A stretch of DNA of 40,797 nucleotides from a virus, in the IMG/VR virus record IMGVR_UViG_3300046519_000088, positions 1 through 40,797 of that record; one strand, written 5' to 3'. Positions 1,425 through 10,976 of the stretch are shown here, in pieces. Numbering within the stretch: the first letter of the stretch is position 1; each line of letters starts with the position of its first letter. A program made the position numbers and the translations under genes. The notes beneath the pieces are model-generated. The model was not told the origin of the DNA. It saw only the letters and a program-made list of their open reading frames with translations, and ran no database searches.

Positions 1425-2194
1425 TGCAGCGTCCCCGTTGTTCTGTCCGTGAGCTGGTCGATAAGGTCTTGAGAAACACCGTCCTCAATCACCCATTCGT
1501 CAGGAGCGGCAGGCGGACGGAAATCCGTCTCATCCCAATTGCCCTTCCCCATGTTGCATTCGTCGCAGAGTATCTGCAGGTTCGATCGTTCGAGCCGCAG
1601 GTGCCAATATTTCGAGATCGGCTTGATGTGATCGACGACGATGCGCACCGGTGCGCCGTCAGCCGCCGTCATTCCTGGCGTAGCGCCGCAGCATTGGCAG
1701 GAGCGACCTTGCTCCTTGAGAACTTCCATGCGGACAGTCCGCCATTCCCAAGATTTATAGAATTCGTCCTTGGAGGCAGCGGACGGGTTGGCCTTCTTTT
1801 GCTTCCCGCTGCGCTCAATCACTGCCTGCAGGATTTCAGGCTTTTTATCAGCCCACGTCCTTTTGGGCCGACAACCAAACCTGTTTTGCTGCTGGATTTG
1901 GAAGCATGGATTGCATTGAACTCTGTTGTATTTCGGTCCACTCTTATTGAAGTCGCCTATTTCAGTAATGGCTTGCCCACGGTTTTTAACGACCATGTCC
2001 TTCCCGCAGTCCTTGCATGCAATTCCGAGAAGTCTTGCGTGTCCTGCACGTTTCATCACTTGCTTGTCGCCCGTAAGGCTGAACCTGATCGCGATTTCCT
2101 TCACCGCAGCGTCAGTCTGCCAATAGGCCTTACTGATCGGAGAAAACTCCAAAGGCACAGCTATCCCTACGAATGGAGCGTCAACGATGCTCAT
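1421..2194 (-). CDS. HNH endonuclease, early leftward operon (257 aa)
   Basis: A C-terminal HNH nuclease domain is clear. A Cys pair in CQCCG (roughly residue 170) is followed by the DHIKP histidine motif, and NLQILCDECN with the trailing N-x-x-K/G segment completes the beta-beta-alpha metal fold. The N-terminal half carries two more Cys pairs (CKDCGK, CNPC) that look like a zinc ribbon for DNA binding. I place the start at ATG 2194, which overlaps the stop of the Cro-like gene (ATGA), rather than at in-frame codons up to 2269. It is the second gene of the lytic operon. It could be a homing-type nuclease or a phage DNA-processing nuclease. Confidence 0.85.
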   Translation of the reverse strand: MSIVDAPFVGIAVPLEFSPISKAYWQTDAAVKEIAIRFSLTGDKQVMKRAGHARLLGIACKDCGKDMVVKNRGQAITEIGDFNKSGPKYNRVQCNPCFQIQQQNRFGCRPKRTWADKKPEILQAVIERSGKQKKANPSAASKDEFYKSWEWRTVRMEVLKEQGRSCQCCGATPGMTAADGAPVRIVVDHIKPISKYWHLRLERSNLQILCDECNMGKGNWDETDFRPPAAPDEWVIEDGVSQDLIDQLTDRTTGTLQ

Positions 2195-2409
2195 GCCGCG
2201 CTCTCCGATTTCTTGGTGCGCCTGTATTCGCTCATGAAGATTCGGATTTTCTCCGCAGTCTCCGGCCATACGCGCCCACCGGACTCCAGCCGTTTCACCA
2301 GCTCTGAATTACCAGAGGCAACCTTGCCGAAGTACGAAACACCCATGCCGGTTTCGGCTATGAACTCTGTGACTTCGGAGAGAAGATTTTCAGTAGGAGT
2401 GTTTGTCAT
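2191..2409 (-). CDS. Cro-like early regulator (72 aa)
   Basis: This small protein begins MTNTPTENLL and has a helical layout with the pattern FIAETGMGVSYFGKVASG, resembling the small HTH regulators of alphaproteobacterial prophages. It is transcribed divergently from the repressor. It starts at ATG 2409, immediately downstream of a promoter (2417-2444) whose spacer is a repressor operator. The position opposite the repressor and at the head of the lytic operon is the main argument for a Cro role. The open frame extends upstream, but those codons lie in the operator region. DNA binding is inferred. Confidence 0.75.
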   Translation of the reverse strand: MTNTPTENLLSEVTEFIAETGMGVSYFGKVASGNSELVKRLESGGRVWPETAEKIRIFMSEYRRTKKSESAA

Positions 2410-2416
2410 GACGTCC

Positions 2417-2444
2417 ACTATATCCTCTAAAGCGGATACGTCAA
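2417..2444 (-). promoter_or_regulatory. Leftward lytic promoter (Cro operon)
   Basis: Read leftward: -35 TTGACG (2444-2439), a 16-bp spacer, -10 TATAGT (2422-2417), then ATG of the Cro-like gene at 2409. That distance implies a very short or leaderless 5' end. Operator site 2422-2437 fills the spacer. The layout is the same, base for base in register, as the rightward early promoter at 3950-3977. Confidence 0.75.
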
Positions 2445-2497: not shown

Positions 2498-2803
2498 ATG
2501 CAAGGTAGTGACTGGAGAGCGCGTCTTGAAGACGCCATCGAAAAATCAGGGCGGTCTAAGCGCGAGATATCCCTCGCCGCCGGCAAGGGACCTGGCTATG
2601 TGTTTTCCATCCTCAGTGAGGGAAAAGATCCGACGATCGACAACCTCATCAAGATCTGCGGGGCGATTAACGTCAGCCTGACCCAGATACTTTACGGGGT
2701 TGAGATGAGTCAGGAGACTCAAGAAATCCTGTCTCTGATAGAGTCGAATCCGAACATGCGGAGCGGCATTCTTCAGATCCTTCGTGAGAAAGATAAAGCC
2801 TGA
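2498..2803 (+). CDS. XRE-family phage repressor, short form (101 aa)
   Basis: An N-terminal Cro/CI-type helix-turn-helix spans about residues 10-65 (RLEDAIEKSGRSKREISLAA, then GYVFSILSEGKDPTIDNLIKIC). A short helical C-terminus (QEILSLIESNP onward) probably mediates dimerisation. The LexA/S24 self-cleavage domain of lambda-type repressors is absent. I chose ATG 2498. The purine run AGAGGA (2482-2487) lies 10 nt upstream, and a -10-like TATTGT at 2488-2493 would make the mRNA nearly leaderless. In-frame GTG 2492 is an alternative. Three operators sit directly upstream. It should bind these and the pair at 3927-3972 to hold lysogeny. Confidence 0.85.
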   Translation: MQGSDWRARLEDAIEKSGRSKREISLAAGKGPGYVFSILSEGKDPTIDNLIKICGAINVSLTQILYGVEMSQETQEILSLIESNPNMRSGILQILREKDKA

Positions 2804-2912
2804 TCTTTCTCAGACAGTCGCGCCGTTGCTCCTCTGTTAGGGCGCTAATGATTCCAATAAAAACAGAAACGCGCATTTTTCTTGATCTTTCATAATCGCT
2901 GTCGGCGTTCAT
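2673..2912 (-). CDS. SOS-controlled small ORF antisense to the repressor (79 aa)
   Basis: This leftward frame starts at ATG 2912, about 37 bp inside a LexA-box promoter (2945-2980), and its last 131 bp lie opposite the repressor gene. Residues 1-36 come from sequence that does not code on the other strand and look protein-like (MRVSVFIGIISALTEEQRRD). The C-terminal half is Ser-rich. The ribosome binding site is poor (only a G-rich run). A 7-codon frame (ATG 2935) ends in a TGA overlapping this ATG, so coupling is possible. By position it could be an antirepressor, or the functional product could be the antisense RNA. In-frame GTG 2927 is an alternative start. Confidence 0.45.
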   Translation of the reverse strand: MNADSDYERSRKMRVSVFIGIISALTEEQRRDCLRKIRLYLSHEGSEECRSACSDSTLSETGFLESPDSSQPRKVSGSG

Positions 2913-2944
2913 GCAATGATACCCCACCCCATTACCCCCGAGGA

Positions 2945-2980
2945 GAACATTATAGGAACATTATCCTAACTCGGTGTCAA
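2945..2980 (-). promoter_or_regulatory. LexA box over a leftward promoter
   Basis: On the minus strand GTTCCTATAATGTTC (2959-2945) is an exact GTTC-N7-GTTC, the LexA site known from Rhizobiales and other alphaproteobacteria. The 7-bp spacer contains a consensus -10, TATAAT (2954-2949). TTGACA lies at 2980-2975, but 20 bp from the -10, which is long for sigma-70, so the -35 assignment is weak. Transcription would enter the ORF at 2673-2912 and run antisense to the repressor. Confidence 0.7.
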
Positions 2981-3083: not shown

Positions 3084-3338
3084 ATGCCTCAGACCGATGA
3101 CCAACGACACAATTTGCGATTACCGCTCGAACTAAAAAAGAAACTAGCGCATTCGGCTGTGGACAATGGCCGGAGCATGAACGCGGAAATACTTGCCAGG
3201 CTAGAAGCATCCTTCGCGCCCGATACAGCGCGCGAGATAGAGAATCTGTTGCGTGGTCTTAGCCGCCTCGACGAGAAAGACCGGTCTGCAGCTCTAGAAT
3301 TGCTCACGAAGGCCACCAAAATTCTCAGCAAGATCTAG
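3084..3338 (+). CDS. Arc-family ribbon-helix-helix DNA-binding protein (84 aa)
   Basis: The N-terminus shows the Arc/Mnt fold: a beta strand (HNLRLPLELKKKL), a first helix (AHSAVDNGRSMNAEILARLE) with the typical NGRSMNAEI signature, and a C-terminal helical extension (ENLLRGLSRLDEKDRSAAL). It binds DNA as a dimer or tetramer. P22 Arc controls the antirepressor gene; here the nearest candidate target is the LexA-box promoter at 2945-2980 that reads away from it. It lies between the repressor and the small RNA on the plus strand. A tandem repeat at 3010-3028 could be its operator. Confidence 0.85.
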   Translation: MPQTDDQRHNLRLPLELKKKLAHSAVDNGRSMNAEILARLEASFAPDTAREIENLLRGLSRLDEKDRSAALELLTKATKILSKI

Positions 3339-3784
3339 GATTGTTTTCTTTTGGGACACTATTGGAGGAATCGAAAGGATGCCTCACGTTTCCTGTGGAT
3401 CGGTCTGCTACGATTTCGGTTGCGCCCCGGATTTAGAACACGATCGCCTTAATAGTATTATTATTACTCTGCCTCTAAGTGGTATCTGCTCTTTGGTGAG
3501 ACCGTTGTAATCTCCGCATACCAAGAACCCCGCCGTAAGAAACAGCGGGCTCCTGGGGCGAAAGGGGTAATCTGCTCTTCGGAGCCGACCGCCGCTTATT
3601 CCGCAATGTGCCGCACTATAGCCAGCCGCACATCTTGAGGTCGTTTTCAGGGGCTACCTGACGATAGGGCTACCTCACCAGCTCGCGCTGCCAGAGAACC
3701 CTTGGGCCTAATCGCATCCCGTTCCTTGCCCAAGCATCAACGCACGACCGAACCGGTTCCCGTCATTTCGTGCGCTCTGTCGGA
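3339..3784. other. Non-coding stretch downstream of the Arc-like gene
   Basis: I see no firm gene here. A 43-codon plus-strand frame (3379-3510) has a good-looking GGAGG/AAAGG upstream and four cysteines but no recognisable family, so I leave it uncalled. An imperfect direct repeat is present: about 3481-3518 and 3566-3605 share TCTGCTCTT, ACCG and TCCGCA blocks. A small hairpin, CCCGC...GCGGG, lies near 3530-3549. The stretch ends at the small-RNA promoter. I recognise no tRNA and no obvious attachment site. Confidence 0.5.
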
Positions 3785-3926: not shown

Positions 3927-3977
3927 GTCCTCTATAGCGGATATTGTGCTTGACATATCCTCAATAGCGGATATTCT
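3927..3977 (+). promoter_or_regulatory. Rightward early promoter with two repressor operators
   Basis: -35 TTGACA (3950-3955), a 16-bp spacer and -10 TATTCT (3972-3977) drive the early operon starting at 4042. Operator ATCCTCAATAGCGGAT (3957-3972) fills the spacer, one base after the -35, and shares the first base of the -10. This is exactly the register seen at the Cro promoter. A second operator, GTCCTCTATAGCGGAT (3927-3942), lies just upstream. Repressor binding should therefore block RNA polymerase directly. Confidence 0.85.
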
Positions 3978-9622: not shown

Positions 9623-9954
9623 ACGATTTTATGACGCCTGAACAATTCGCCAAACACTTCGGATGGTCTCCCAGAAAAGTGAGGGAGATCGCAAGGGGGC
9701 TTGGCGCGTGCCGGATTATAGGTAATCGTATGGTTCTCATCCAAAAAGACATTGACGCAATTCTGGAGGCAAGCCGTCCATGCCCGTCACCATCTACAAG
9801 CGCGGCGACATCTACCACTACCGGGGCACGGTCAACGGTCGCCTCCTTCGCGGAACATGCCAGACATCCGACAGAAAAACAGCGCTCCGGATCGCCAGCG
9901 CCAAAGAACAAGAGGCGTGGAAAAGTGATCTTGATGGCCCGGACGCCGTACTGA
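9619..9954 (+). CDS. Excisionase-like HTH protein (111 aa; functional part ~54 aa)
   Basis: Residues 4-52 form a MerR/excisionase-type winged helix (MTPEQFAKHFGWSPRKVREI, then IIGNRMVLIQKDIDAILEAS). From residue 55 the frame runs 175 bp into the integrase gene in another frame and becomes low-complexity Ser/Thr/Ala and basic sequence. The position directly before the integrase and overlapping it is standard for Xis. ATG 9619 overlaps the HNH stop (ATGA). It should bind attP to direct excision. The overlapped tail may be dispensable. Confidence 0.75.
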   Translation: MNDFMTPEQFAKHFGWSPRKVREIARGLGACRIIGNRMVLIQKDIDAILEASRPCPSPSTSAATSTTTGARSTVASFAEHARHPTEKQRSGSPAPKNKRRGKVILMARTPY

Positions 9955-10784
9955 TGTTCTCACAGGCGGTAATGCATTACCGGAAGGCTGGACGGTCAAA
10001 CCGCTTCATCAACATGGTAGCCAACTACTGGAAAGACATGCTGGTGAAGCACATCACGCCGGGGTTGGTTCGCCAAGCTGCCATAGCGCTATATCCAAAC
10101 GCGACGGGCGGGACACGCAATAGGCACGTCATCGTACCGACGCAGGCCATAATCAACTATTCCGCGTCTCTGGAAATGTGCCGAACGCTCAAGGTCGAAC
10201 GGTTCGAGGAGAACTACAAGGTCAAAAAGCCAGTATCATGGGATTGGGTGGAATCGTTCATGCGTGCCTCTCAGCCTCATTTGGGGGCGCTGGCATGCTT
10301 CATGTTCTTGACTGGCGCTAGGATAAGCGAAGCACTGGATTTGCGTTGGGAAGATATAGACATGTCGTCACGGCGTGCGACAATCCGGCAGACAAAGGTT
10401 GGCAGCGAGCGAAAGGCCCACATGCCGACGGCGCTCGTGGCTGCAATAGCCAACATCGAGGGTGAGCGAGACCCGGAGGGGAAAGTCTTCAAGTATTCGA
10501 CGCGGAACACCTGCGCGCCTCAGTGGAAGAAAGCATGCAAGCGAGCCAAGATCCCGTTTCGTAGCTTCCACTGCTGCCGACATGGATTTGCGACAGCTCT
10601 CCTGCACAAAGGCATCGATCCAATCACCGTTGCCAAGCTAGGCGGCTGGAAGACACCGCAGCACGTTTTCGAGACATACGGCCACGCAATGGCTGACGAT
10701 ACGCTTGCAGATCGGCTTATTGACACACAGGAGACACAGGGCGTCATTGTACAAGGCTATTTCACCAATAAATCAAGCGCTTAG
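9780..10784 (+). CDS. int: Tyrosine integrase (334 aa)
   Basis: The catalytic set of tyrosine recombinases is visible: Arg181 in TGARISEALDLRWEDID, a Lys at about 206 in the beta-hairpin, His264-x-x-Arg267 in FHCCRHGFAT, Trp290 in GGWKTPQHVF (the His/Trp position) and nucleophile Tyr300 in FETYGH. The N-terminus (VTIYKRGDIYHYRGTVNGRL) is an arm-binding-like strand domain, and residues 55-145 are the core-binding domain. A GGAGG at 9765-9769 precedes ATG 9780. It catalyses integration and, with the overlapping Xis-like protein, excision. It closes the rightward operon. I could not identify attP. Confidence 0.93.
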   Translation: MPVTIYKRGDIYHYRGTVNGRLLRGTCQTSDRKTALRIASAKEQEAWKSDLDGPDAVLMFSQAVMHYRKAGRSNRFINMVANYWKDMLVKHITPGLVRQAAIALYPNATGGTRNRHVIVPTQAIINYSASLEMCRTLKVERFEENYKVKKPVSWDWVESFMRASQPHLGALACFMFLTGARISEALDLRWEDIDMSSRRATIRQTKVGSERKAHMPTALVAAIANIEGERDPEGKVFKYSTRNTCAPQWKKACKRAKIPFRSFHCCRHGFATALLHKGIDPITVAKLGGWKTPQHVFETYGHAMADDTLADRLIDTQETQGVIVQGYFTNKSSA

Positions 10785-10813: not shown

Positions 10814-10938
10814 GAGTGTCCCGCCGCCGTCTATAAGGAAAGCTCTGAGAAAGCGCAAGAGGCAAAGTGATTTAGGAAATTCTCTCTGCAAGTTCGCGCT
10901 AATGCACGCAAGAACGAGTCATGAACGCGCAAGTCACA

Positions 10939-10976
10939 TTGACACACCAGAAACACAGCATGTTCTATAGATGTTC
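10939..10976 (+). promoter_or_regulatory. Second LexA box over a rightward promoter
   Basis: GTTCTATAGATGTTC (10962-10976) is an exact GTTC-N7-GTTC LexA box, and its spacer contains a -10-like TATAGA (10966-10971). TTGACA lies at 10939-10944, 21 bp before that -10, too long for certainty. The design mirrors the box at 2945-2959, where TATAAT also sits in the spacer. A ribosome binding site (AAGGAG, 10985-10990) and an ATG follow. Confidence 0.65.

Follow-up and report, generated by a model that had tools for sequence, protein, structure and literature searches.

A small gene behind a conserved LexA-type box, convergent with a short phage repressor, as a candidate SOS induction switch in prophages of rhizobia, agrobacteria and related bacteria

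The stretch of DNA analyzed here (the window) is the virus record IMGVR_UViG_3300046519_000088, 40797 bases long, whose integrase and RecT point to a temperate phage. Its kin are Agrobacterium phage Atu_ph08 and a prophage of Rhizobium mesoamericanum STM3625. Our analysis considered the region of a short phage repressor gene that is met from the opposite strand by a small gene, proposed to encode an antirepressor and preceded by a LexA-type box. The following features make up this region:

2498..2803, plus strand: phage repressor of 101 residues (ATG at 2498, TGA at 2803), with a helix-turn-helix (HTH, about residues 1-66) and a C-terminal helical hairpin (residues 72-82 and 85-100)
2673..2912, minus strand: small convergent gene of 79 codons (ATG at 2912, stop at 2673), the proposed antirepressor, recognized by its homologues and codon-position bias
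2876, minus strand: alternative start (ATG) of the small gene, giving 67 residues, with a weak ribosome-binding site
2784..2876, minus strand: conserved core of 31 residues, predicted to fold as a helical hairpin, its first 24 codons outside the overlap
2673..2803, minus strand: overlap, the last 131 of the 240 nucleotides (nt) of the small gene, antisense to the repressor 3' end and coding for a poorly conserved tail predicted to be disordered
2959-2945, minus strand: exact alphaproteobacterial LexA-type box GTTCCTATAATGTTC, GTTC-N7-GTTC, by sequence match
2954-2949, minus strand: TATAAT (-10) within the LexA-type box, conserved in the related locus L004
2980-2975, minus strand: TTGACA (-35-like), 20 nt from TATAAT, with TTGACG in L004

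A Pfam search with the repressor returned HTH_3 alone (residues 11-63, E 1.6e-7) and no peptidase or self-cleaving domain. In its AlphaFold2 model (predicted local distance difference test score, pLDDT, 88.5), the HTH is followed by a two-helix C-terminal hairpin, and the SinR/SinI complex 1b0n is among the top fold matches. The original prediction for this DNA had described a repressor of the non-cleavable kind, made of an HTH and a short tail, a leftward TATAAT inside an exact GTTC-N7-GTTC box, and a 79-codon open reading frame whose 3' half lies opposite the repressor gene; the domain content, the exact box with its internal TATAAT and the 131-nt overlap agree with each of these descriptions. 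Three relatives of the repressor (L053, L055 and L083) have a long C-terminal domain in place of the short tail, and the exact box is absent there. In L083, at 4983-5610 of L005, a related HTH is followed in the same protein by a long C-terminal region resembling a LexA/S24 peptidase domain; both a convergent LexA box and the small gene are missing there, which makes it a natural contrast.

GTTC-N7-GTTC is the published LexA motif of Caulobacter (PMC12700426). Exact copies occur three times in the window as against 1.2 expected, with 15 of 100 shuffles reaching three, and the box at 2959-2945, when judged on the window alone, is not significant. A search for the E. coli-type box, CTGT-N8-ACAG, found none. 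Genome-wide counts of the exact box were barely above the control, and the exact motif alone is therefore a poor predictor. For the host recA gene, two boxes matching 7 of 8 bases lie near its start in genome G002, while none was seen for G001. The two further exact boxes of the window, at 10912-10926 (minus strand) and 10962-10976 (plus strand), lie just beyond the integrase gene (9780-10784), the latter downstream of a TTGACA, and possibly mark another SOS-linked promoter; a shared attachment (att) site suspected at the box at 10962 was not supported.

The box at 2959-2945 is significant because its position and orientation are kept across relatives. Repressor relatives were drawn from viral contigs, one-per-species genomes, and phage and plasmid records, and boxes were counted in 47 non-redundant short-repressor loci. 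Of these 47, 17 have an exact box that lies 61-153 nt beyond the repressor stop and points the same way, whereas flanking DNA gives an expectation of about 0.0025 per locus and of about 0.12 over all 47. Two more loci, in Ochrobactrum phage POI1126 and in a Roseicitreum plasmid, carry an exact box in the opposite orientation. Most boxed relatives have the box directly 5' of a ribosome-binding site and the small-gene start codon. It is well supported, at the level of sequence comparison, that the small gene is preceded by a conserved LexA-type site. Five loci from genomes of 1.3-1.6 Mb (L027, L029, L031, L034 and L035) retain the small gene, at least as a trace, without an exact box, and their LexA site may differ from the exact form.

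Homologues of the small gene were found in Atu_ph08, R. mesoamericanum, R. skierniewicense, other genomes of the family and viral contigs. The first ~30 residues of the protein are conserved, and substitutions at codon positions 1, 2 and 3 number 257, 160 and 435 (outside the overlap, in the +73 group; these are pairwise counts and not independent). Shine-Dalgarno-like sequences stand 5' of the core start in most relatives, and among confident matches this start lies 49-79 nt beyond the repressor stop in constant phase. The small gene is also present in L068, L069, L073, L075, L076 and L077, which were found via the repressor alone and stood outside the model-building set. In the reciprocal direction, a small-protein profile search of 395 family genomes gave ten matches with E < 1e-11, all ten adjoining the repressor. 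Given the conserved N-terminus, the third-position bias, the ribosome-binding sites and the linkage to the repressor, the small open reading frame is, on this comparative evidence, a real gene. We consider it very probable that it is SOS-controlled and translated, and only somewhat less so that its product acts against the neighboring repressor.

A homology search with the 79-residue product, proposed along with the original prediction, thus yielded homologues beside the repressor in relatives but no known family, as 22 members searched against Pfam, PHROG and NCBIfam gave no consistent match. No description of the small gene was found in the open-access literature, with subscription journals mostly outside the search. 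In Atu_ph08, the gene lies just downstream of the repressor at 3301-3606 (L002) and is unannotated in the public record. In a weak profile match, L094 (in G337), the HTH repressor is a different one, accompanied by an exact LexA box, a ribosome-binding site and a convergent small hairpin open reading frame; the two reading frames (1419-1626 and about 1538-1873) are on opposite strands and overlap by 89 nt at the repressor 3' end. In another candidate, L093, the hairpin ends a larger open reading frame and no LexA box is present, and it was not counted as the same system.

For the small protein, the predicted fold is a helical hairpin similar to the one at the C-terminus of the repressor, a likeness that the original prediction did not include. 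AlphaFold2, run on an alignment that left out two rows from phage records, models a two-helix hairpin at residues 1-31 (block means of pLDDT 90-96 over residues 1-30) and disorder beyond it, the disordered part being the stretch encoded opposite the repressor gene. A profile of the core aligns to columns 74-98 of the repressor tail (~25 residues, P about 2e-5), with a score that none of 400 column-shuffled profiles reached. Divergence of the core tracks that of the repressor tail beyond the HTH, with a partial r of 0.74 given the HTH and of 0.39-0.50 in subsets. Foldseek with the small protein gave nothing significant. SinI was absent from the PDB chains matched by its profile (E up to 5), and the matches RBL4 and RBL7 from the PDB were set aside, as their names suggest designed helical proteins.

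Such a likeness between a regulator tail and a small partner has a known counterpart. In B. subtilis, SinI disables SinR by hairpin-hairpin pairing, through a surface that uses residues conserved between both proteins (PMC3163267). The layout of SinR (HTH 1-69, hairpin 74-111) matches that of the repressor here, in line with the fold match to 1b0n, and the modeled small protein would resemble SinI in being a small hairpin protein similar to the repressor's own hairpin, a motif that is generic. SinI-SinR, in contrast, is a Spo0A-controlled, non-phage system, without LexA and without an overlapping opposite-strand gene, and SinI has no sequence match to the small protein.

The repressor at 2498-2803 can be inferred to be the immunity repressor, since operator-like palindromes lie in the gap between the divergent genes and at the early promoter, and recur in relatives. 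In the window, palindromes of the form TATCC...GGATA are confined to three sites, starting at 2421, 2472 and 3956. These sites and the divergent gene are:

2191..2409, minus strand: divergent gene of 72 residues in the Cro position, its HTH character merely suspected, with no match in a Pfam search
2421..2438, between the two divergent genes: operator-like palindrome TATCCTCTAAAGCGGATA, identical in L004
2472..2489, 5' of the repressor: operator-like site TATCCCATTTAGAGGATA, identical in L004, with a related site in Atu_ph08
3956..3973, within the early rightward promoter TTGACA-N16-TATTCT (3950-3977): operator-like site TATCCTCAATAGCGGATA, conserved in L004, with a related site in Atu_ph08

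Between the proposed switch and the early promoter, an Arc-like ribbon-helix-helix protein is encoded at 3084-3338 (plus strand), which has a C-terminal tail with a similar pattern, LLRGLSRLDEKDRSAALELLTK, and is conserved in L004 and replaced in Atu_ph08.

We propose, with a probability of about 0.62, that the element is an SOS induction switch in which an antirepressor pairs with the repressor tail and dissolves the repressor oligomer. We observed directly that the box and the coding sequence are conserved, that the small gene is tightly linked to the repressor and that its product resembles the repressor tail; LexA binding, expression, protein contact and operator release are the steps that we infer from the sequences. 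In a lysogen, host LexA bound at 2945-2959 would block the leftward promoter. Once DNA damage removes LexA, the leftward transcript would be made and translated into a protein of ~79 residues, whose N-terminal hairpin would imitate the C-terminal hairpin of the repressor, the proposed surface of self-association. Pairing with the repressor tail would dissolve the oligomer, and the operators at 2421, 2472 and 3956 would be freed, so that the early operon is switched on. For tail pairing as the mode of action, taken by itself, we see slightly better than even odds.

Several points weigh against this proposal and should be considered. The 20 nt between TTGACA and TATAAT in the leftward promoter of the window exceed the sigma-70 optimum, and a standard promoter scan does not list this promoter because the spacer is too long. 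Where the small gene is confident (18 non-redundant loci), the exact box is missing six times, three of the six matching 7 of 8 bases. As the core ATG at 2876 has a weak ribosome-binding site in the window, the start at 2912 is an assumption. The core-tail correlation could partly reflect the physical closeness of both stretches, and the tail likeness spans only ~25 residues of a common hairpin motif. The small-protein profile also weakly picks up a chromosomal protein, which we take to be PheS; with a hairpin this generic, the likeness between core and tail could possibly have come about through convergence. A weak plus-strand match in G392 turned out to be the repressor's own tail, and was not used as proof, as the PheS-like matches score similarly. 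Finally, the long-form repressors available for contrast number just three.

The generic hairpin also bears on where the small protein would act, as it could bind elsewhere on the repressor, for example at the HTH, with the tail likeness amounting to a common motif. The Gifsy repressor-antirepressor complexes, which fit A2B2, are compatible with this, as the repressor dimer may stay together there. However, the profile match to the tail beats shuffles and the correlation is specific to the tail, and we regard binding elsewhere as unlikely, if still a serious option.

The overlap raises the question of what the transcript itself may do. Complementarity to the repressor gene amounts to 131 nt in the window and to 68-149 nt in the 18 relatives scored, in constant phase, while the annotated small gene of Ochrobactrum phage POI1126 overlaps its repressor gene by only 18 nt. 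Compared with synonymous shuffles, the open tail is slightly longer (Fisher p 0.008, pooled across 18 related loci), but the excess at single loci is mostly not significant and the loci are not independent. Ahead of the repressor gene, the leftward transcript would meet a weak hairpin at 2815-2798 and no strong terminator. One SOS transcript might thus both encode the antirepressor and silence new repressor synthesis in cis, in the manner of lambda OOP, as the fixed phase and the longer open tail suggest; given the weakness of the single loci, and as the overlap may merely save space, the odds are against such a double role. A version in which the tail mimic disables existing repressor while cis antisense stops its replacement, the mimic having perhaps arisen from a copy of the repressor tail on the opposite strand, is doubtful.

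It is very unlikely that the leftward transcript is mainly an antisense RNA that lowers repressor synthesis by pairing with the repressor mRNA 3' end or by transcription collision. The extent of complementarity, the constant phase and the lack of a strong terminator would suit such an RNA, but the coding conservation, the ribosome-binding sites and the folded core lie outside the overlap (the core almost wholly so), the overlap varies in length, its openness is weakly beyond chance, and reduced synthesis alone would be slow against existing repressor. From the choice left by the original prediction, between a small antirepressor, an antisense RNA or both, the antirepressor thus emerges as the likeliest product, and antisense RNA is not supported as the main mechanism. 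The opposite-strand design is also less novel than the original prediction had it: lambda OOP RNA (PMC5869508), which comes from a LexA-site promoter and shares a 52-base overlap with the cII 3' end, is a partial precedent. Like the transcript proposed here, OOP runs leftward and is complementary to the 3' end of a gene for a phage regulator; the short OOP RNA, however, targets cII instead of the lysogeny repressor, and is not known to code for any antirepressor. Compared with OOP, the locus here has, besides its weak hairpin, a conserved open reading frame, which argues against action by RNA only. Host targets are common among SOS-induced phage genes, but an SOS-induced small protein with another target, such as a host protein, is hardly probable, as every strong family-wide match adjoins the repressor and the sequence follows the repressor tail.

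Considered as an antirepressor that pairs with the repressor tail, the small protein can be compared with other known systems. In Salmonella, the Gifsy antirepressors GfoA, GftA and GfhA are small, LexA-controlled and directed at non-cleavable repressors, giving SOS induction without repressor cleavage (PMC3121763). The window appears similar in its non-cleavable repressor and in its small gene behind a LexA-type box, but the Gifsy antirepressor gene lies outside the immunity region, whereas the small gene in the window runs opposite to the repressor gene and overlaps it; GfoA and GftA, compared via family libraries only, share no family with the small protein in these searches. 186 Tum and N15 AntC are also cited as LexA-controlled antirepressors. 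Tum has 146 residues and a DinI-like half, unlike the hairpin protein of ~67-79 residues here, convergent with and overlapping the repressor gene. In modules of a transcription factor and a small open reading frame (TF-smORF; VP882 Qtip, phage 72), a small phage protein inactivates a repressor (PMC10432266), as is proposed here, but the modules answer to a phage transcription factor and not to SOS, and the repressors are cleavable. CinS-PraR of Rhizobium leguminosarum, as cited in PMC10688885, involves an HTH regulator counteracted by an anti-repressor, in a rhizobial host; likened here by that description only, it differs in being a quorum-sensing system of the host.

The Gifsy study suggested a wide occurrence of antirepressor-based induction (PMC3121763), but named no partner for most non-cleavable repressors. 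In many alphaproteobacterial prophages, position now points to such a partner: one looks for a LexA box some 60-155 nt beyond the stop codon of the repressor, together with a small opposite-strand gene. Tail mimicry, if true, would mean that phages use a SinI-like principle controlled by the SOS response; by analogy, such pairing, if controlled by LexA, would allow SOS induction of a phage whose repressor is not cleaved, following the Gifsy logic. As judged from the sequences compared, this overlooked small gene is carried by temperate phages that infect rhizobia, agrobacteria and their relatives, and its product probably disables the repressor.
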